From a virus: a stretch of 40,888 nucleotides of DNA. Positions 592-19,172 of this stretch are shown here, piece after piece. The position numbers and the translations under genes are program-made. Location: positions 1 through 40,888 of the IMG/VR virus record IMGVR_UViG_3300028558_000007. One strand, given 5' to 3'. Every line of letters begins with the position of its first letter. Positions within the stretch are counted from its first letter, which is position 1. The notes under the pieces are model-generated. The model made no database searches and was not told where the DNA came from. It saw nothing but the letters and a program-made list of their open reading frames with translations.

Positions 592-3107
592 TTACAGTGT
601 TATAAAGTTTGCTGAACGTGTAGACAGCAAGTTACGGATCGCCGTATCTTGCGTAAGCGCCTGTGCCTGAGCGAATTTAACCGCCAGGGTAGCGTTCTGA
701 GCGAGCATACCAGAATAATATGGATCTCGATAAATCAAGTTCATCGAGTAACCATCCTGGTTAATGTGCGTAATTGCTTGCTTCCCAACTACCGTATTAT
801 AGTAAACATCTCGTCCATTCATGGAAGCGGAGCGCGCTACCGGAGCTTCAGAGCTGGTTAATATACGAATATTGAATACTGCGCCGTATTCGGTCGGAAG
901 TGCTTCTGTGTTATGGCCATATGACCAAGTAGACAAAAACCCATCGCCAGTAAGCGCGTCAAAATCAGGCTGAATCTCCGTAGAGGACAGCATGAAGTAA
1001 GCTGCACGAACTGGACCTGTGCCGAACTTCAAAGATCCTTCAATACCCGAAACGAATTTTTGGGCATTGTTGGTATCCAAAGTCGCAGCCACAAGGCTGA
1101 AATCGGAGATCCCCAAGTTAGTTGGGTTATCACCGTTAGCGCCGCCGCCAGCATTGATTTCCGATGCTGCGGAAACGATATAGTCGCGGAGGATAAGCAC
1201 TCTGTTACTTTCAGGACTAATGGCACTTCCACTTGCGTAAAGCTAATGCCTTACGAGTGGGTCTTCCCTTCTCATCTTTCATGGGTCCAGGAACGCCAGA
1301 CATGCGTGCGCAAAACGATTTTTTTCTTTTGCCTACTTTCGAGTCTGGATCTACTTTTTTCGTAACAGGGGCTTTGAGGTTAGCTCCTTCTTTTCGTTTA
1401 AAGTAGTCTCTTCCCTTCTTATTTAACCCACCTGATGGGGATTGGTATTCTTTTTTCACCATATTTTTCCTTACTGACCTATCACTAGGCGGAAATCCCT
1501 CTTCGGAGATTCCTCACGACCTTTCTTTCCATTCGTCGTGTTCAGACTATCGCATCACCTATTGAGGTGCCGTCTCACTTAGTCGTTTAGGCTGCTTTCG
1601 CTTGCCCCATGTCACCCTGTCGGGCTTCCATGTCAATTAGAGTCGGTTTATCGAGGACATTATCTCTATCCTCGGCTTGGCGCATTGCTACGGCCAGTCT
1701 TTCGCTGACCCATGCTAATACCAATTTGCGCCACGCTAAGAGGGCGTATTATGCTGCAACTTTCTCAAAACCCTCTTGGTCTTGTCACCTTGTTACTCCC
1801 TTTCGGGGGACTGGTCATTTCTGCCAATCTCTGCAATTTCATGTATCGTTGCAGATCGGACTATCGCTTCACCTTCCAGTGTCCACTCGCCTTAGTCTCT
1901 CACGGTGCTTTCGCTTCCGCCTTGTTGCCCCATCGGGTTTCCAAGTCAATCAGAGCAGATTTTTAGCTTTAATGTTTGTATGAATATGTAGAATATGTTA
2001 CAATCCCTCACAAACATGCAATATAGGAGTCCTATGACAGACTTTTACGGAAGAAATCTCTCTGAGCATGAGATTGGATATCTTGCCGGTATCATGGATG
2101 GAGAAGGAACCATTCACATCTCTAAACCTATTACTAGGAATAAAGATTGCAAGAGTGGTATTTATCAAACTTACATAGCAGTCACGAATACTGAAATAGT
2201 ACTTCTTGAATGGATGAAAGAAAGAATTGGAGGAATTATTCGATCCATTCCGACCGATAAAAAATCCAACGTTATCCGCAAACCCATATGGAGATGGTAC
2301 TGTCCCATCGTTCGTATCATGGACTTCTGTAATCTTTTGATCCCTCATTCCGTGATAAAAAGAAGACAATTTGAGATCATGCTTGAAGCGAGAAGTACAT
2401 ATACAATCCATGGAGCTAAAAAAGGACAACAGGGAGTTAAAAAACTTTCCGATGAAATCCTTGAAATTCGACATAGATGTTATTTGGAACTTAAATCTCT
2501 TCATACAAGACCTAATCTTCGTCATCCTAACCTACAACATTAAAACGGTCATACCACAAAATCCTAATATGACCTGCTCGTTGATGATACATCCGGTCAA
2601 AATCATCAACTATCTTCGGCACCGGTTAAGCTGCTTGACCGAAGAATGCCATTTGGGCATCAATGATCTTTCTGTTACTTTTGTAACCTAAGTTGCCAAG
2701 GCGGAGAGGTTCTTCGACGCTCTCTCATGACCTTCCTTATATTCGCCATGTTCAGACTGTTGCATCCTATATAGGTTTTCTCGCTCAGTCGTTCACGCTG
2801 CTTTCGCTTGCGCCTCGTTACCCCATCGGGCTTCCGAGTCAATCAGAGAAAATTTACCCGCGACATTCATTTTATCGCGCTGAGGCACTTGAGCTGGAGG
2901 ATCGATCCCGCTATTGCCCAATTGAATGGTCGGAGGTTGTAAGGCTCTCGGCCTCATGAACCTACAAGTAGTTCCGCCGTTGACCGGCATTGACACCTTA
3001 TCGCAGACGAGTATGTAGTTCATCGTCGGCGTAGGCGTGTACAACATGGCTGGGGCGAGTGATTGCAAAATCATCGGCCCTAAGTTGCCGGTTGTAGTAA
3101 TTGACAT
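592..3107 (-). CDS. Major capsid protein gene in six inferred exons (N4 gp56-like)
   Basis: This is the coat protein of the phage head. Inferred exons on the minus strand are 3107-2874, 2667-2638, 2597-2566, 1785-1770, 1721-1668 and 1197-592, joining to 323 aa. The gaps are three group I introns (2873-2668, 2565-1786, 1667-1198) and two mini-introns (2637-2598, 1769-1722). The joined middle reads IIDAQMAFFG, TGCIINEQVILQDQEG, VLAWVSERLAVAMRQAED, LILRDYIVSAAS, all in one frame. This agrees in spacing with my recollection of N4-gp56-type capsids (FYATYIVLNEQV, LQNQDPVLN, LRQTEDQLTRD); I could not align it. Exon 6 supplies the C-terminal two thirds (GANGDNPTNLGISD, GTGPVRAAYF, NQDGYSMNLIYRDP). 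The order scaffold, then this gene, supports the role. The ATG at 3107 follows AGGG at about 6 nt. No unspliced frame can encode the whole protein. Confidence 0.75.
1198..1667 (-). ncRNA. Group I intron 3 of the capsid gene, 470 nt, hosts an ORF
   Basis: P1 pairs 5' exon CGAGGAT with GTCCTCG (1658-1652), with U-G at the splice site. P10 pairs GATAA (1664-1660) with exon TTATC (1196-1192). P3 is CCGACTC (1646-1640) with GAGACGG (1576-1570). P7 uses GACTA with TAGTC, and the GATAGTCTGAAC block follows P8. The last base is G at 1198, after the AAGTAACAG element shared with two sister introns. The joined frame reads MRQAED then LILRDYI. A DUF6321-like ORF is inserted between the P9-region hairpins and the 3' end. 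Confidence 0.85.
1217..1462 (-). CDS. DUF6321-like small basic protein encoded inside intron 3
   Basis: 81 aa, very Lys/Arg rich. It contains SPSGGLNKKGRDYFKRK, GKRKKSFCARMSG and KDEKGRPTRKALALRKWKC, which match my memory of the DUF6321 family of small phage proteins; the function of that family is unknown to me. The ATG at 1462 has AAGGA five nt upstream, so it can be translated from the unspliced transcript. It lies wholly within capsid-gene intron 3 and is not a homing-endonuclease type I recognise. It may be a passenger gene, or a basic RNA/DNA-binding protein that benefits from the intron. The coding call is solid; the role is open. Confidence 0.8.
   Translation of the reverse strand: MVKKEYQSPSGGLNKKGRDYFKRKEGANLKAPVTKKVDPDSKVGKRKKSFCARMSGVPGPMKDEKGRPTRKALALRKWKCH
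1722..1769 (-). other. Coreless group I mini-intron (capsid gene, 48 nt)
   Basis: The 5' exon AAGAGGGT (1777-1770) pairs with GCCCTCTT (1745-1738), ending in U-G. The directly abutting TAATAC (1751-1746) pairs with the 3' exon GTATTA (1721-1716). The element ends in G at 1722. Removing it joins QDQEG to VLAWVSERL in frame, which is what the capsid family needs here. Only 16 nt follow the guide segment, so there is no space for P3-P8. I infer splicing; the only direct evidence is complementarity, frame and protein continuity. Confidence 0.65.
1976..2004 (+). promoter_or_regulatory. Sigma70-type promoter for the intron-borne homing endonuclease
   Basis: TTGTAT (1976-1981), a 17-nt spacer and TACAAT (1999-2004) lie 30 nt before the endonuclease ATG. 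The promoter faces against the capsid gene and sits within intron 2, so the gene can be expressed independently of late transcription. Confidence 0.6.
2034..2543 (+). CDS. LAGLIDADG homing endonuclease, antisense within capsid intron 2
   Basis: 169 aa from the ATG at 2034, which has TAGGAG four nt upstream; an upstream in-frame start at 1995 is possible but has no such site. It has one LAGLIDADG motif near the N-terminus (YLAGIMDGEGTI), so it should act as a homodimer that cuts intronless capsid alleles and drives intron homing. The middle part (ITRNKDCKSGIYQTYIAVTN and WRWYCPIVRIM) fits single-motif members of the family. It is encoded opposite to its host gene and has its own promoter. The minus-strand frame through the same bases is a shadow. 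Confidence 0.85.
   Translation: MTDFYGRNLSEHEIGYLAGIMDGEGTIHISKPITRNKDCKSGIYQTYIAVTNTEIVLLEWMKERIGGIIRSIPTDKKSNVIRKPIWRWYCPIVRIMDFCNLLIPHSVIKRRQFEIMLEARSTYTIHGAKKGQQGVKKLSDEILEIRHRCYLELKSLHTRPNLRHPNLQH
2598..2637 (-). other. Coreless group I mini-intron (capsid gene, 40 nt)
   Basis: The 5' exon TCTTCGGT (2645-2638) pairs with GCCGAAGA (2620-2613), ending in U-G. The abutting CCGGT (2625-2621) pairs with the 3' exon ACCGG (2597-2593). The element ends in G at 2598. Unspliced, the frame stops at a TAA (2628-2626). Spliced, MAFFG joins TGCIINEQV with the spacing I recall for this capsid family. Only 15 nt follow the guide, so no ribozyme core can be present. It lies 32 nt upstream of intron 2. 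Confidence 0.7.
2668..2873 (-). ncRNA. Group I intron 1 of the capsid gene, 206 nt
   Basis: P1 pairs exon CGCGAT with GTCGCG (2864-2859), ending in U-G. P10 pairs AATGA (2871-2867) with exon TCATT (2666-2662). P3 is TTTTCTC (2852-2846) with GAGAAAA (2783-2777). P7 uses GACT with AGTC. The last base is G at 2668, after AAGTAACAG. It has no ORF and is exactly as long as the portal intron, to which its core is closely similar. The joined frame reads QVPQRD then IIDAQMAFFG. Confidence 0.88.
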
Positions 3108-4279: not shown

Positions 4280-4960
4280 TTAAGGAAGTTCCTTAAGACA
4301 CTCAATATTAACACTAGCAATAGTAATCGGAAATACCGATCCAGTCACGTTGGGGTTCAAATTAACCGCAGAGATGCTGGTATTTCTCAACCTGAGCGTA
4401 TCACCTGCTTTGACCTCAACAATAACTTCACCAGTACTATGACAAGCGTCATCGCCAGGCGCCTGCGTGTAACCAGAATAGATACTTCCTGGAACAAGGA
4501 CACCATTTAGCCAGAAGCCGAAGCTCCAGCTTGGGACTGGTTGTGGGACTGGGGGAACAATTCTACCTTGAAGCTGCCAAGAAAGATGATATATACCATG
4601 TTTCAAGAACTTAAGATCGCCGCTAATATTAGCCATGCTTAGATCAAAATCACTAGAGGTTACAGCATTTTTTTGATCAAACAACACCATATCCGTAGGC
4701 GTATTGTAAGCTCCAACCACTAAAGGGACTGAAGCATAGACGTTAGCCCATCGCTGGCAGCCACAATCTCTATCATGAGAACCACAATCTTTTCCCGGAA
4801 GTCCTTGTAGACCTTGAGGACCTTGTAGGCCCATTGGACCCTGCGCACCCTGCGCACCCTGCGCACCAGGAACGCCCTGGATACCTTGCTCGCCTTGAGC
4901 TCCGGGAACCCCTTGAGGGCCTTGGTAGCAGCAAGCGTGCATATGTTTTTCATCACACAT
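4280..4960 (-). CDS. Collagen-like protein with C1q/BclA-type C-terminal domain
   Basis: 226 aa. After a Cys/His-rich start, residues about 14-56 form uninterrupted Gly-X-Y triplets (GPQGVPGAQGEQGIQG and on), able to make a trimeric collagen helix. Residues about 70-226 are beta-rich (FGFWLNGVLVPGS, VEVKAGDTLRLRNTS), like the trimerising C1q/TNF-like heads that cap bacterial and phage collagens. The likely role is a virion surface fibre or host-range accessory. AGGAG lies eight nt before the ATG. It is isolated between a convergent cassette and an AT-rich upstream region that may hold its promoter. Confidence 0.85.
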   Translation of the reverse strand: MCDEKHMHACCYQGPQGVPGAQGEQGIQGVPGAQGAQGAQGPMGLQGPQGLQGLPGKDCGSHDRDCGCQRWANVYASVPLVVGAYNTPTDMVLFDQKNAVTSSDFDLSMANISGDLKFLKHGIYHLSWQLQGRIVPPVPQPVPSWSFGFWLNGVLVPGSIYSGYTQAPGDDACHSTGEVIVEVKAGDTLRLRNTSISAVNLNPNVTGSVFPITIASVNIECLKELP

Positions 4961-9445: not shown

Positions 9446-11821
9446 CTATTGACCCATTGCCTGCTGTTGTGGTTGTTGATTTAAACCACCTTGCATCATT
9501 TTAGTGACAAACTCACTAGAAAGCGCGGCTCGACGAGCATCTTGTTTTTCAACATCATCTTTCAAGTCCTGTTGATAGTCAAGGTTTTGAATATCGTTCA
9601 TTCTCAAATTTGCCTCAATTTCTCCATGCTTAGCTATAACGTCCATAAGCTTGTCCAAGGCTTCCACTTTGTTTTTCGTAGAAGACGAATGGTCGCTCTG
9701 TATCTTTGCAATACGCTCCTCCAAAAGCCCGATATTGGATTCCGCTCTTCCATGTTTTTCCCTAGCTGTGGCCAAAAGACTTGCAGCTTTGGCCTGTAAT
9801 TCATGTAGCTTCGCCTCTTCAAAGGCATGTTGAATGTTGGTCATCTCGCCCTGAACCGCCGCCTGCTGCTGCTCTTGCTGCGCTAGGATCTGCTCTAGCT
9901 TGTTCTTGCCCTGCAGGGTGGCTACGGAGACGATGTAGGATGGTGGTATAATGCCGCCGAGGATCTGATTGAGCTCTAGGGTCTGCTGAAACTCTTGCTG
10001 TCTTTGAATCGCGGTATTGAGTCCCTCTGCGATCACGACCTGATACTTGCTGAAGATCCTGCTGTAGAAATAGGGAGATGGCTCCTCACCTAGATAGAGA
10101 GATACTTTGGCCGCATTCCAGTTGTTCTGAACGATGCTAATCAGGCGATCCCCCAGCGTTTTTAAGCTGAAGTCCCACTGATCAAAATACTTCTGAAGCA
10201 CCATAAGGTTAGCGGCTTGCTTCAAAAGTACAGTTAGCGATGACGTTTGCTTGTCGTCCTGCCCGCTCCAGTTCTCAATGTCTACCCCAGAGGTGGCGAA
10301 TATCAGTCCCTGAAGCTGATTAGCGAGCTCCATATCCGATTGTGGAACTGCACTAGGGATGATTTTCTCGCAGTCACCCAGCTCGAAGCCCTCATTAATA
10401 ATAATGTCCCAGCCCTGCCCAGACTTTTTAAGATTGTCTTCATTGGCTACCGCTCCTACTTTGCGTTTCCATCCCTGGTTGATCGTGGCTTCAGAGATGT
10501 CGTGGTTAATAATAATGCGCCGGTTAAGCAGAAATTGCGGATCGCGCATGGTTTTGACAAGAGAGCGCACGCGAAGATCGTAATAGTTTATGTGCGGCTC
10601 ATAGTTCCAGAAGACAGGGATCATGGGGCAGTCGTCAAAGCCTAGCGGATTGTCGCCCTGGAACATTAACTGATCGTTAAGAACGGTGGCGAGCTTCCAG
10701 GTAGGGCATTCGACCTCTACGACCTCAAGATCCGGGATCTGGTACAGGACGGCGTCTATGGTTTCTTGGCCACCGGCAAAGTCAAAGAACTGATTTCTTT
10801 TTTGAGAATAAAGTCGTTTCTTTTTTCTCTTCCAGCGATACCAAACGTAACTAAGTACCATCAAATCATTTCTAGCCATATTATAATTTTCAGGTAAGAA
10901 ATAAAAAGACCCGTAACGCTGCGGTGTCCCAGACATAGGCGCGATATTAGATATCTTATCGGGGAATCGATTCTCAGCCTCATGCTTTGATATATATTCT
11001 TGACACCAAATGAATTGCGCATCGCTGGCGTCGGGATTTCTGAAGTAAGGATCGATCAGAAAAGAGTTATATTCCCAGACTTTTACTTTAAGCTCGCCCT
11101 GAGCAGGATCAGATCCCACAAAATCAAGGTAGGGCTGCAGAAGTACCATGCCTGAAATGGTGGCGAGCTCACAGGCTTTAGAAAACTGCTCATTGATTCC
11201 CCCGACATTGCAAACATGGTCAATTATCCTTGTGTATTGGTCAGAAGTTTGTGAATCCCCACCCTCGCTCGCTATATAATTAATCGATTTTCTGTGTTGT
11301 CTTTGATAGCCCGTGACCATATTAACTGGCTGCTGGAGCAAGTTAAAATAAAAGTTCTGGTAAGAGAACGACGGAGTAAAATTGAAGTACCGATTCACAA
11401 ACGACTGCGATCCGGCGTAAAATAATGTCTTTAACTGTTACTTTTATGACCTATTTCTAGGCGGGAGGTCTTGTTATTCCCTCCTCCGCGATTTCATGTA
11501 TAGTCGCGGAACAGACTATCGCATCCTCTTTAGAGGTCCCCTCGCTTAGTCGTTCACCGTGCTTTCGCTTCGGCCCTGTCACCCCATCGGGCTTCCAAGT
11601 CAATTAGAGGGGATTTATCATCGACTCACTATTAATCGATGTTTGACTGATTCCACCTTGCCTGCTCAATCTAAATATTTTACTTGGCACGTAAATCAAT
11701 CAAAAACAGCCCATTAAGCGTAAAAAGGCTGAAATTTAGAGTATAAATTGTCGAGCCAAGCACGGCAATTTCCCTGGTTAGGCTCTAAATTATTGTTCCA
11801 TGGTGGATAGTAAAAACTCAC
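9446..11821 (-). CDS. Portal protein gene in three inferred exons (P22-like portal)
   Basis: The portal forms the dodecameric DNA entry ring. Exons 11821-11726, 11670-11635 and 11428-9446 join to 704 aa, close to the 725 aa of the P22 portal. Exon 1 starts at a GTG with AGGAG seven nt upstream (MSFYYPPWNNN) and ends NLYSKFQP. Exon 2 is IEQARWNQSNID. Exon 3 begins TLFYAGSQSFVNRYFNF and contains the core (FYFNLLQQPVNMVTGYQRQH, VWYRWKRKKKRLY, NRRIIINHDI). It ends in a Gln-rich coiled coil. Interruptions are a 55-nt mini-intron and a 206-nt group I intron. Without splicing the only open frame starts at a GTG at 11398 and lacks the N-terminal region. The neighbouring terminase and scaffold fit. 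Confidence 0.82.
11429..11634 (-). ncRNA. Group I intron of the portal gene, 206 nt
   Basis: P1 pairs exon CATCGAT with GTCGATG (11625-11619), ending in U-G. P10 pairs AATAGTG (11633-11627) with exon CATTATT. P3 is CCCCTC (11612-11607) with GAGGGG (11543-11538). P7 is GACTA (11551-11547) with TAGTC within 11514-11520. P8 is a CCTC/GAGG hairpin and P9 is CCGCGA/TCGCGG. The last base is G at 11429. The joined frame gives NQSNID then TLFYAG. No ORF inside. Confidence 0.9.
11671..11725 (-). other. Coreless group I mini-intron (portal gene, 55 nt)
   Basis: The 5' exon CAGCCT (11731-11726) pairs with GGGCTG (11712-11707), ending in U-G. The abutting GCTTAAT (11719-11713) pairs over seven bases with the 3' exon ATTGAGC (11670-11664). 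The last base is G at 11671. Unspliced, the frame stops at a TAA (11716-11714). Spliced, SKFQP joins IEQARWNQSNID. The 36-nt tail after the guide has a TTTAC/GTAAA hairpin but no P3-P8 core. It lies 36 nt upstream of the full portal intron. The hairpin followed by T5 could alternatively be read as a terminator. Confidence 0.7.
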
Positions 11822-11839: not shown

Positions 11840-12466
11840 TTACGGTTTCTTAATTATGCTATATCCGTACTGTTCAAGGAATTCAATATAATATTTTATT
11901 CTATCTTCTACCCTTTGACCGGCAGGCTGCCCTTTATTCCACAGCTCTAGATTCTCTGGCCGATTGTCATCTCTAATCCCGTTTTTATGGTGAACTGTTT
12001 CTCCTTTAACAAGCATCCTTCCTAATTCTTTCTCCATAACCAAAACATGTTCGTAAGTTTTTCTTAAGTATTTTCCGGTTTGTGCATCAACTAAAACAAT
12101 GATCTTATACCCTTTAAGATTATATCCCTCTTTTCTTGGTCCAGTAAAAAAGTCATGTCCTAAGGGTAACCCTTTTTCCAGCCTTCTTTTTTCTGCTATC
12201 TTTCCATAAACTTTTCCCATTGCTTTACCAAATTTTTCCGGTCTATTTTCTTTATAGTTCTTGTATTGACACTTAGGACATCTAAAGAAAGTTTGATTTT
12301 TTGCAGTAAAGTTCTTTCCACAATCTACGCAAACACATTTTATGCGACACTCATCACATCTTTTCTTCCTTGTCCCAGTCAAATCTTTTCCACATTCCTT
12401 ACAAGAGTTCTTTTTGGGAATATAGGTTCTTTTGTGATACTCTGCGTAATACTCTTTCTTGCTCAT
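11840..12466 (-). CDS. Free-standing HNH homing endonuclease
   Basis: 208 aa from the ATG at 12466, with AAGGTGGGGG upstream; the frame is open to a TTG at 12544. The N-terminal half holds several CxxC zinc knuckles (CKECGKDL, CDEC, CVDCGKNF, CPKC). The C-terminal half is an HNH domain (EHVLVMEKELGRML, ETVHHKNGIRDDNRPENLEL). It ends 18 nt before the portal start and lies outside the inferred portal introns, so it is an intergenic homing endonuclease that may target the adjacent portal gene. It is divergent from the RNA ligase. Confidence 0.88.
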   Translation of the reverse strand: MSKKEYYAEYHKRTYIPKKNSCKECGKDLTGTRKKRCDECRIKCVCVDCGKNFTAKNQTFFRCPKCQYKNYKENRPEKFGKAMGKVYGKIAEKRRLEKGLPLGHDFFTGPRKEGYNLKGYKIIVLVDAQTGKYLRKTYEHVLVMEKELGRMLVKGETVHHKNGIRDDNRPENLELWNKGQPAGQRVEDRIKYYIEFLEQYGYSIIKKP

Positions 12467-12568
12467 TTTTTCCCCCACCTTATCATGCACCATTTTACCA
12501 CAATCCACACTATCTTGACTTAAATTATTTTCAGTTGTACTCAAAAAACGAACAACTGGAGTTTAACA

Positions 12569-16104: not shown

Positions 16105-16378
16105 GCTTCTTTCCTCGTATTTTCCTTGATTTTTGGCGATCTTTATGCTGTAAATAACTAAGTTCGATGGCATACTTCATAAACTTTTTTACGGTCTTTT
16201 CGTCTTTCCAGTTTGGGGCCAAGGTACAGAAAAACCAAGCAAAAACACTGCACATCATTGAATATGCTTCGGTCAATGAATCGTTATCATCGCAACTTTT
16301 AAGAACTTTTGTAGTCCTATCCATTATTTGTTTTGAAAAAAATTCAGAAAACGCAGCTTCATCAGGAGTAAGACTCAT
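16085..16378 (-). CDS. Hypothetical helical protein coupled to the terminase
   Basis: 97 aa; its ATG overlaps the terminase stop (ATGA). Helical with Cys and aromatic residues (AYSMMCSVFAWFFCTLAPNW) and a basic C-terminus (RQKSRKIRGKKHE). It resembles small immunity- or regulation-type phage proteins, but I recognise no family. Confidence 0.65.
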   Translation of the reverse strand: MSLTPDEAAFSEFFSKQIMDRTTKVLKSCDDNDSLTEAYSMMCSVFAWFFCTLAPNWKDEKTVKKFMKYAIELSYLQHKDRQKSRKIRGKKHEMDTE

Positions 16379-18594
16379 ATCTTCCTAAATCCCCCGCCCC
16401 CAAGCGTCTTACCGTCGCTCTCAGGCATTGTGTTAACTCTGTGAGAAGAAATTCCGTAGCGTAGGGCGTCGCAATTGTGCACTAAAAGTCCATCTGCAAA
16501 ATATTCACTTTCTTTATCCACGGACAGATTGTAAACCTTTCTCCAACCAATTGGCCTTCGCAAAACAGGCTCTAGAGCAGTATTTGGCTTTTCTATATTT
16601 ATTAACAAAGAACTCCCGATCACATCTAGGACATTTTCTAGGCTCATCGTCAGCTCCAGAATTACGCCTCCAGGCAGACTTACATTTATTTGAACAAAAG
16701 CAGTTTTTTGTATTGGATCTTTTTTTTGTCCTGTAGATCCCCCCACAGTTTTTACAAACAAGTTCTCTGGTCTCCCAGTTTCCAAAGGACTGCCTGCGAG
16801 CGTGTTCTTTGTGCCACTCTCTTCCTTGATCTGATTTATGCCACTCAACAGCTCTATTCCTGCAAGTGTCCGAAAAGCGGTATGTACGATCTTCTCTATG
16901 TCTTTGTTCATGCTCTTTTGGAGAAAGACATTCGAGATTGGATAGATCATTATTAGATGGGTCTTTGTCGATGTGATGGATATGATATCCCTTTGGTATT
17001 GGCCCATTGGCGGCGCTCCACACATCTCTATGCAAGTGAGTAGGTCTACACTTGTAGTACAGTCGCGGAGATTCTTCAGGAGCATTTGGATATCGTCGGT
17101 ATTCTCTTCCTCCGAAAAATACGACCTCAGCTTCGCCATATTTGCCCATTTTTCCCCATCCTTCATAGTAATTAGGATATCTGATTGTATCAGATCGGAA
17201 GCCATTTTCCAACCATTATCCACAGTGTAAAACGGATGATTGGGCGTGCATTTTATGGGCCTATTGGCTAGATGAAATTCAAAACACTCGACTGAGGCGG
17301 ACTCCCCAAGTGCTCGCACTTTTCTCAATCCCCCTCTGGTGAATACTAGATTTCCCTCTTTGATACCCTCAATATTCCCCGAACCAGCTATGAATGTATC
17401 GGCGCAAAAACAGGCATGGTCGAGAATTCCGCTTCCCTTCATGGGCTCATCATATCCCTTCTCGGCTTTCTTGCTGTCCCAAACATATCCCTCTATCTCT
17501 TTGATGAGGTTAGTGCAGCAGTCAAGTATGACCAGATTCCCTTTATACATCTCACTAGCAACGATCTGTATGCCATTAGCCACATCATTATTAGCATCAA
17601 CGCAATGAATACCGAGTTTCTGTAGGTCCAGTTTAAAAGCGGCGCAGCTAGGATCAACATAAAGACCCCGAAGGGCGTACGGCTCAATAAACTTTTGAAC
17701 ATCTTGAGCGAACTCCGCATTGGTTTTTTGCTTATGAGTCACCGCCGGGTTCCAGTAATACTCCTTTTCTACCCACCATTTTCGCCCCGTTTGATCGTAT
17801 CTGCCAGTAGATACGCCAATGACCAAGCAGCAAAACGGCGCGAGCGTGCCGTAATCAATGGCGGCAATCCAATACTCAGCGCAACGAGGTGGGCGAGAAA
17901 CGACATGTAATTTAGGATCAAAAAAATCGTACACAGCACCCTCAGCAAGACACCAAATCCCTAAGTAATTGCGCTTGTAAAATAGCCCAGAGAGCGATTT
18001 TTGCATATCCTCGATGTAGCCGGGAGCCAAGAACATGCGGTTGTCTTCAATCGAGAAGTGAAGGGCATAGTAATTTGGGTCAGTCTCTGCGCGGTCTATC
18101 CATTGCTTTAGCCTGTGAGATGGCTGCTTGGGGTTCATGGCAGCAAATAGCTTGCTGTGAGCGCGGCGCAGCCTTGTCTGGATCATGTCGATGACCACGT
18201 CAGGATACAGCGTCATCTCGTCGCAGAGGCAAAGATCTAGCGTGATCCCCTGGATCTTGCCCAGCGCTCCTTCATCGCCGGCTCCGATACATAGAATGCT
18301 TTTAAGACCGTAAGCCAGTACCCCTTTTGACGACCAAGTGCATGACGGACGCACAAAGGCAAGCTCAGGGGCGTTAAAGATGAGGGTGATAACGTTCTGA
18401 TAGATAGATCCCATTGAGAAGCCGAAGATGGCGATAGAGTCTCCTGGGCAGACTGCGGCCTCTTTGAGAAAAGCCACGAGTGTGCAAACTGTTTTACCCG
18501 AGCTGACAGCTCCGTGAGCGAGGTTGTATTTGGCATTGGCCTCCTGAATAAATTGCTTTTGCTTTGGGCTATAGGGTGGAAGTTTAATCGTCAT
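16375..18594 (-). CDS. Large terminase subunit with intein
   Basis: The motor-nuclease that packages DNA. The precursor is 739 aa from the ATG at 18594 (MTIKLPPYSPKQKQF); an ATG at 18642 would overlap the divergent gene. ATPase domain: Walker A GAVSSGKT (residues 28-35) and Walker B ending DE (125-126). Nuclease domain: Asp247 (AIDYG), Asp314 (YVDPS) and Asp392 in DHA. The third motif, DHACDALRYG, is split by a 313-aa intein immediately after DHA. The spliced enzyme is 426 aa, a normal size. The small terminase lies upstream. Enzyme activity requires intein removal, since the intein separates active-site residues. Confidence 0.93.
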   Translation of the reverse strand: MTIKLPPYSPKQKQFIQEANAKYNLAHGAVSSGKTVCTLVAFLKEAAVCPGDSIAIFGFSMGSIYQNVITLIFNAPELAFVRPSCTWSSKGVLAYGLKSILCIGAGDEGALGKIQGITLDLCLCDEMTLYPDVVIDMIQTRLRRAHSKLFAAMNPKQPSHRLKQWIDRAETDPNYYALHFSIEDNRMFLAPGYIEDMQKSLSGLFYKRNYLGIWCLAEGAVYDFFDPKLHVVSRPPRCAEYWIAAIDYGTLAPFCCLVIGVSTGRYDQTGRKWWVEKEYYWNPAVTHKQKTNAEFAQDVQKFIEPYALRGLYVDPSCAAFKLDLQKLGIHCVDANNDVANGIQIVASEMYKGNLVILDCCTNLIKEIEGYVWDSKKAEKGYDEPMKGSGILDHACFCADTFIAGSGNIEGIKEGNLVFTRGGLRKVRALGESASVECFEFHLANRPIKCTPNHPFYTVDNGWKMASDLIQSDILITMKDGEKWANMAKLRSYFSEEENTDDIQMLLKNLRDCTTSVDLLTCIEMCGAPPMGQYQRDIISITSTKTHLIMIYPISNVFLQKSMNKDIEKIVHTAFRTLAGIELLSGINQIKEESGTKNTLAGSPLETGRPENLFVKTVGGSTGQKKDPIQKTAFVQINVSLPGGVILELTMSLENVLDVIGSSLLINIEKPNTALEPVLRRPIGWRKVYNLSVDKESEYFADGLLVHNCDALRYGISSHRVNTMPESDGKTLGGGGFRKI
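16474..17412 (-). other. Intein in the terminase nuclease motif (313 aa)
   Basis: It starts with Cys (17412-17410) in block A (CFCADTFIAG), has block B (TPNHPFYT) and ends with blocks F/G (YFADGLLVHN), with Cys as the next extein residue. The flanks rejoin as LDHA-CDALRYG, a perfect terminase motif. The C-terminal His-Asn and the +1 Cys indicate standard class 1 splicing. The in-frame middle (about 190 aa) has no endonuclease motif; an HNH gene lies there in another frame. Confidence 0.93.
16514..17149 (-). CDS. HNH endonuclease nested out of frame inside the intein
   Basis: 211 aa from the ATG at 17149, with AAGGATGGGG upstream; the frame is open to a TTG at 17212. Same strand as the terminase but another frame. 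HNH domain: THLHRDVWSAANGPIPKGYH, IHHIDKDPSNNDLSNLECL, EHEQRH. Two zinc-ribbon modules follow (CKNCGGIY with CSNKC; CPRCDREF with CSRAC). This is a homing-type nuclease, presumably cutting intein-free terminase alleles. The terminase frame is open through all these bases, so both proteins are encoded by the same 636 nt. Confidence 0.88.
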   Translation of the reverse strand: MGKYGEAEVVFFGGREYRRYPNAPEESPRLYYKCRPTHLHRDVWSAANGPIPKGYHIHHIDKDPSNNDLSNLECLSPKEHEQRHREDRTYRFSDTCRNRAVEWHKSDQGREWHKEHARRQSFGNWETRELVCKNCGGIYRTKKRSNTKNCFCSNKCKSAWRRNSGADDEPRKCPRCDREFFVNKYRKAKYCSRACFAKANWLEKGLQSVRG

Positions 18595-18632
18595 TTTGGT
18601 ACACCAACCTTGACCATAATGAGGGAGTGAAT

Positions 18633-19172
18633 ATGAGTGCAAGGATTTATTGTAAAGACTGCAAGGATACGATTATAAACCCTGAGAACGCTCATCTTCA
18701 GTCCTGCAAATGCGGGAAGACAATGACCCAAAGGCTTGTGAAGGGCTATGCGGTATCTCCCGGCTCGAACTACTGCCTGGTTGACGATCAAGGCAATGAG
18801 ATTATGGTTAAAGAGGCGCCGCAAGAAAGGGTGATTAGTATGGGGTCGCCCCCAAACCGATCAGAGAACCCTGAGATCATTGAGGAGCTTATGCTCGCAC
18901 TACACCATCAGATCGAGGTTATGGAAAGTTTGTCTCAAGGCGGACGATTTTCCCCCGTTGTAAACCAAGACTTACTTGCCCATTTTCTGTGGCTCCAAGC
19001 AGCTCTGCGCTGGAAGATTCGGCGTATTGAGAAGTGCTTTGCGGTTCTTGAGACTGCTGACGATCAGATCCGCCAGTTGTTTGAGAGGGTGGCTGAGCTT
19101 GAGCGATCTCTTGAGGCTTTGAGGGGATCGAAGAGAAAAACTCCTTTAAAGCAGAAAAATGCTGAAGGTTGA
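18633..19172 (+). CDS. Zinc-ribbon plus coiled-coil protein
   Basis: 179 aa from the ATG at 18633, with GAGGGAG upstream; a GTG at 18627 is possible. N-terminal Cys pairs (CKDCKDT, CKCGKTM) form a zinc-ribbon-like head. The C-terminal 100 residues are helical and coiled-coil-like (DDQIRQLFERVAELERSLEA). The last 254 nt are antisense to the small terminase gene. No family recognised. It diverges from the large terminase with a very short intergenic space. Confidence 0.65.
   Translation: MSARIYCKDCKDTIINPENAHLQSCKCGKTMTQRLVKGYAVSPGSNYCLVDDQGNEIMVKEAPQERVISMGSPPNRSENPEIIEELMLALHHQIEVMESLSQGGRFSPVVNQDLLAHFLWLQAALRWKIRRIEKCFAVLETADDQIRQLFERVAELERSLEALRGSKRKTPLKQKNAEG

Follow-up and report, generated by a model that had tools for sequence, protein, structure and literature searches.

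A 55-nt coreless element in a phage portal gene as a probable dependent of the neighbouring group I intron

The group III introns of Euglena chloroplasts are short and degenerate; they keep their splice-site elements and are thought to borrow catalytic parts. Untranslated inserts of about 30–55 nt that contain stops occur within an essential gene in the bypass of T4 gene 60 and in the mitochondrial byp elements, where the ribosome hops between matching codons. The inserts described here (hereafter minis) differ from both, since the Euglena introns use group II chemistry and obtain their core from a source other than an adjacent intron, and none of 37 minis shows matching take-off and landing codons. 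Closer systems are the group I introns of phages, with which the minis share a P1 with U-G, an internal guide, P10, a terminal G, the canonical geometry and a location in structural genes (PMC3984707); unlike those introns, the minis are 30–75 nt long, lack the P3–P8 core and always lie just upstream of a complete intron. Engineered spliceozymes and trans-excision-splicing ribozymes show that a group I core can act on an RNA other than its own; in them, as proposed here, the core removes a short internal segment delimited by pairing on each side and joins the exons (PMC4094466). In these laboratory designs the guide is on the ribozyme, whereas in the minis it is within the mini itself and the ribozyme would be a natural neighbour, as genomic coupling suggests. 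No natural coreless group I intron was found in the open-access literature.

The window, i.e. the whole stretch of DNA analysed, is an entire phage entry of IMG/VR, 40,888 nt in length. The interrupted gene encodes a P22-like portal (PF16510, E 4e-49) on the minus strand, and the gene for the major head protein (phrog_1357) is interrupted in a like manner. Seven genome-contig matches were metagenome bins of mixed phyla, several of them phage-sized, and no host was assignable from them. Directly upstream of the portal gene there is a free-standing HNH endonuclease gene (11840–12544, minus strand, PF13392), whose product is possibly the homing enzyme for the portal introns.

The portal insert was placed by a splice-aware protein alignment that is blind to splice signals (one base aside, at an equivalent junction), and the same alignment located a 206-nt intron 36 nt beyond it (Table 1). 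On the minus strand at 11725–11671 the layout is exon ...TTTCAGCCT, insert TTTTACGCTTAATGGGCTGTTTTTGATTGATTTACGTGCCAAGTAAAATATTTAG, exon ATTGAGC.... An earlier note on this DNA had described a coreless 55-nt element with a 6-bp P1 containing U-G, a 7-bp P10 and a terminal G, and this anatomy was recovered as stated. In P1, CAGCCU (11731–11726) pairs with GGGCUG (11712–11707), with the U-G at the splice site, and in P10, GCUUAAU (11719–11713) pairs with AUUGAGC (11670–11664), one U-G included. The P1 plus P10 score of the insert was reached by none of 2,000 dinucleotide shuffles. The P3–P8 core and the guanosine site of P7 are absent from it (full introns need about 200 nt), and Rfam gave no match for the 55-nt mini.

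Joining of the exons gives SKFQP-IEQARWNQSNID, restoring the reading after the TAA stop as the note had claimed. The SKFQP-IEQAR junction is uninterrupted in three relatives (L001–L003, with 91–93% identity over the N-terminal 120 aa) and in most of 80 other portal homologues. This comparison with intronless relatives indicates that the portal N-terminus does not start past the junction, and it supports removal of the insert in the manner of an intron. The expected spliced portal of 704 aa also holds (32+12+660), with both the 55-nt insert and the 206-nt intron removed. That such elements occur independently in two genes was borne out as well: splice-aware protein alignment of the capsid gene revealed five introns, of 206, 40, 780, 48 and 470 nt, two of which are the other minis (2637–2598 and 1769–1722), giving a total of three minis across two genes in the window. 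A small basic ORF of 81 aa is present in the 470-nt intron (window about 1460–1217, minus strand; MVKKEYQSPSGG...LALRKWKCH), and ORF-sized room was also observed in other long capsid-gene introns.

Table 1. Positions of the interruptions and their predicted splicing elements in the portal and major-capsid genes of the window
Feature	Position	Strand	Remarks
Portal exon 1	11726..11821	-	32 codons, VSFYYPPW...SKFQP; terminal CAGCCT is the 5' strand of P1
Putative coreless mini-intron, portal	11671..11725	-	55 nt; TAA stop in frame as fourth codon (FYA-stop)
P1 3' strand	11707..11712	-	GGGCTG; partner CAGCCT 11731-11726; first pair U-G
P10 intron strand	11713..11719	-	GCTTAAT; directly adjoins the P1 strand
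P10 exon strand	11664..11670	-	ATTGAGC
Terminal (omega) G	11671..11671	-	Last base of the mini
Possible J3/4-P4-P5 relic	11684..11704	-	TTTGATTGATTTACGTGCCAA, compared with CTGATTGACTTGGAAGCC in full introns; ~11/16 bases agree
Exon between mini and full intron, portal	11635..11670	-	36 nt, IEQARWNQSNID
Full group I intron, portal	11429..11634	-	206 nt; P3, P4, P5, P6, P7, P8
Portal exon 3	9446..11428	-	660 codons, P22-like portal PF16510
Full group I intron, capsid	2668..2873	-	206 nt; reads ...AQAKAA-stop in frame
Putative mini-intron, major-capsid gene	2598..2637	-	40 nt; P1 8 bp, P10 5 bp; QAA-stop in frame
Full group I intron, capsid	1786..2565	-	780 nt; 32 nt after the 40-nt mini
Putative mini-intron, major-capsid gene	1722..1769	-	48 nt; P1 8 bp, P10 6 bp; FEKVAA-stop in frame
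Full group I intron, capsid	1198..1667	-	470 nt; 54 nt after the 48-nt mini; small ORF inside

Related phages have about 40 distinct minis of 30–75 nt in their portal and major-capsid genes, as found in a sample of 41 relatives, two further sets of loci and one genome-contig set. They occupy four sites in the capsid gene (MAFFG/T, GCI/I, QEG/V and RLA/V, the slash marking the junction) and four in the portal gene, and intron lengths are bimodal, either 30–75 nt or mostly 200 nt or more. Nearly all minis have one protein-consistent junction at which the cut is preceded by U, P1 is 6–9 bp long and opens with U-G, P10 adjoins P1, and the mini ends in G; the acceptance filter for the mini counts included the U before the cut, the terminal G and P1. 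In the first set, this pattern (U at -1, P1 of 6–9 bp, terminal G and P10) was present in 24 of 27 well-supported inserts of 25–80 nt, and the remaining three belong to a separate hairpin class. P1 was chosen by maximum pairing, after which the position of P10 was fixed, and a shuffling test of 24 minis gave a Fisher's combined p of about 3e-39, which is not a literal probability because the sequences are related. Strict adjacency leaves P10 with only 2–3 bp in three portal minis (L107 at QP/I, L102 and L129). Seven capsid cases in which the first splice alignment had fused a 5-codon exon with the mini (L116, L133, L186, L198, L233, L200 and L224) look like further QEG/V minis and were excluded from the counts. 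L321 was also excluded; its best-scoring junction is off the splice pattern, and inspection by eye shows a mini of 38 nt that has both P1 and P10. No convincing group I intron or mini was found in the gene families surveyed besides portal and capsid. Gene finders and Rfam miss introns of this kind, so split phage structural genes may be commoner than thought.

Co-variation of the two helices was analysed in 25 minis aligned in fixed columns. The first P1 pair was U-G in all 25, and pairs 2–6 were each formed in 25/25, with 2–4 pair types per position. P10 pairs 1–4 were formed in 25, 25, 24 and 23 minis, respectively (97 of 100 cells), with up to five pair types. A one-base slide of either partner lowered the pairing by half or more. 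When partners were shuffled among all minis, 0 of 2,000 trials reached the observed pairing, and when they were shuffled within sites, 0 of 2,000 did so for P1 and 1 of 2,000 for P10, although these counts and p-values overstate independence since the phages are related. Synonymous changes in the exon are compensated in the intron: the Thr codon in capsid exon 2 occurs as ACT, ACA or ACC, with AGT, TGT or GGT, respectively, in the guide, and at the site that splits a Trp codon the pairings CCTCCAT with GTGGAGG and CCTCCGT with GCGGAGG were found. As judged from these alignments, selection on the splice-site helices of the minis is supported, and splicing of the minis is strongly supported.

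Full introns of about 200–1,100 nt are present in the same portal and capsid genes as the minis. Seventeen of them, of 200–230 nt, align well; their consensus contains P3 (7 bp), P4, P5, P6 and P8 with many two-sided changes, and a P7 pseudoknot of 5 bp, whose fifth pair varies between AT, GC and TA, is present in 17/17. Rfam searches of the window and of the portal intron region, low threshold included, gave no group I match, and hence the group I assignment of the full introns rests on this alignment. The P3/P7 pseudoknot, P4–P6, P8, P1 and the terminal G were all found in the neighbour of the 55-nt mini (11634–11429). The minis are too short for any of P3–P8; as they lack the core by which group I membership is tested, they are here called a core-deleted variant that would act like the substrate half of such an intron.

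The earlier note had missed that a full group I intron follows closely downstream of each mini, a position that suggests the source of catalysis. A mini together with a recognised downstream intron was present in 30 genes, and the next intron was full in 30/30 (log10 p of -9.4 when labels were permuted). The distance from mini to full intron was 24–96 nt, save for one entry of 1056 nt that was traced to a filter artefact in L087, where the adjacent 788-nt intron scored only a 3 bp P1 and was dropped. The rule was first noticed in the first set and then held in the second. Full introns exist without minis, and the reverse was never observed; the minis of L038 and L056 ran off the locus ends, and the longer copies L177 and L175 show the full intron next.

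We consider that the 55-nt element is probably a non-autonomous, core-deleted group I intron that is spliced by the ribozyme of its neighbour. Of the parts needed for group I splicing, the mini's sequence would provide only those of the substrate: P1 would arise from exon 1 and the guide, its U-G lying at the cut, P10 would arise from the guide and exon 2, and the terminal G would close the intron, both splice sites being brought together by the P1–P10 helix. The core would be supplied by the full group I intron located 36 nt downstream in the same transcript, which would dock this helix, contribute the guanosine site and the catalysis, cut the mini out with a guanosine cofactor and also remove itself. 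We infer that the ribozyme of the neighbouring intron is the catalyst and that it acts in cis rather than in trans; the linkage of minis to full introns could have another cause, e.g. joint inheritance or a tag function. If the proposal is true, this would be the first natural case found in which a group I intron has shrunk to its splice-site helix and uses the ribozyme of another intron. A step of this kind has been put forward to explain how spliceosomal introns arose from self-splicing ones of group II, and none is known for group I. With the minis it also becomes possible to test whether one group I core can act on two introns of a single transcript.

One alternative is that the minis are spliced in trans by any free group I ribozyme in the cell instead of by the neighbour in cis. 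Engineered group I ribozymes excise introns of 64 and 100 nt in trans (PMC4094466), and intron-bearing genomes often contain several full introns. Splicing purely in trans predicts, however, that minis also occur downstream of a full intron or far from it, whereas a full intron was next downstream in every one of the 30 genes, and we regard this explanation as unlikely. A dead relic or a mistake in assembly, with the portal broken or restarting at the GTG at 11398, is a highly improbable account of the insert. The contigs are metagenomic and a 650-aa frame is open downstream, but the conserved N-terminus would be lost, and independent contigs have inserts of this class at about eight sites, where compensatory changes are seen that would not persist in dead DNA. 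A similarly small probability is given to a composite intron formed by the mini, the short exon and the full intron, with alternative 5' sites and the 36-nt exon skipped sometimes or always; the constant and close pairing of mini and full intron would suit this arrangement, but the intervening exon codes for residues that are conserved in uninterrupted relatives, and in each mini a separate P10 and terminal G match that mini's exon 2.

Ribosomes that hop across the insert, in the manner known from T4 gene 60 and the yeast mitochondrial byp elements, would account for the similar size (30–75 nt), the early stops and the lengths that are not multiples of three. Hopping has no need, however, of co-varying P1 and P10, a fixed U-G or a terminal G; the take-off and landing codons are not identical in any of the 37 minis, and the insert at the PPW site splits the conserved Trp codon (T/GG), which only joining of the RNA restores. 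We therefore find hopping scarcely credible. Least probable of all is that a protein splices the minis and the full intron is nearby only through inheritance. Nothing direct favours this reading, and all that can be named for it is the HNH gene just upstream; the conserved features (U-G, P10 beside P1, terminal G) are precisely what a group I ribozyme reads, and no mini is found except upstream of one.

As to the origin of the minis, a 199-nt full intron is present in another phage, L270, at the exact site of the window mini, between TTTCAGCCT and ATAGAGCA. Mini and full sites did not coincide elsewhere, except in the fused alignments at QEG/V. From these sequences, we take the minis to be putative deletion derivatives of full introns; the stretch of the window mini that resembles the start of a full core (Table 1) is suggestive of a relic.

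The ssrA tag of E. coli is ANDENYALAA, and some of the ends encoded by the capsid introns, such as DYARLAA, resemble it. Translation of the capsid minis in the frame of exon 1 gives a peptide whose last residues before the stop are -AA in 22 of 31 (in 27 if -VA is counted too), and shuffling expects 2.1. In full capsid introns without a mini, -AA ends were found in 28 of 36 located at or beyond residue 68 and in 0 of 9 located before it, a cut that was set after seeing the data. The frequency was 3/31 in full capsid introns that follow a mini (p 2e-8; the labels in this count were assigned by an automatic rule and a few are wrong, the introns at 122 in L321 and at 125 in L200 being in fact preceded by a mini) and 0/16 in portal introns. 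MAFFG/T minis without a stop of their own run out of frame into exon 2, where they end in LAA, LVA, QAA or QVA. Capsid genes with -AA intron ends include that of the window (2873–1198, minus strand), those of L083–L214 and others.

Similar ends were found outside this group. The capsid intron of mycobacteriophage LittleE (L330) reads WNSVATAAA-stop and that of the Baka (L329) tail gene LSDDLAAAAA-stop, both introns having previously been shown to splice (PMC3706429), and an intron in a P22-like coat gene reads YFLLAA-stop. The phages in which introns of structural genes show such read-through ends are thus far L329, L330, L325 (ctn9Y15) and L343–L407. In a separate phage sample with the same core, AA ends were present in 10 of 44 exon frames and in 1 of 88 other frames; the ten look by eye like capsid genes, and the shared core sequence means that the -AA cases are not all independent. 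Exceptions are Tuc2009 (short exon, FPAWS-stop) and ribonucleotide reductase (TNP-stop). That in-frame stops aid intron folding is an accepted idea (PMC3984707), and the -AA ends go beyond it. Perhaps, as far as such ends can be read from sequence, they mark the products of unspliced mRNA for degradation. A tRNA/tmRNA scan of the loci of the relatives found no tmRNA, and no intron-encoded ssrA-like tag was found in the open-access literature. If true, the ssrA-like tags of capsid introns would be a new way to limit the damage from unspliced mRNA. The combined proposal, that these are natural dependent introns in which one ribozyme splices both itself and an upstream coreless mini, and that in capsid genes both kinds of intron also serve quality control through an ssrA-like degradation tag on the unspliced product, is in our judgement evenly poised.

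A different class of inserts, of 47–51 nt, was observed in the portal gene at EQAR/W (L110:3125-3172, L029:3021-3067, L121:10533-10580, L280:2316-2366 and L321:5893-5943), with a terminase member in L055 (about 1361–1411). These inserts contain a very stable hairpin (two were folded, at about -41 kcal/mol, with z of -8.6 and -6.8) and no splice pattern. In some of them the gap size and the flanking Arg codons recall gene-60 bypassing, whereas L321 (AGA) and L055 show a mismatch. In the window phage the terminase large subunit gene (16375–18642, minus strand) contains an intein splicing domain (PF14890), and interruptions are thus present in its portal, capsid and terminase genes. A collagen-like Gly-X-Y protein is encoded at 4280–4960 (minus strand) by an ORF of 226 aa.
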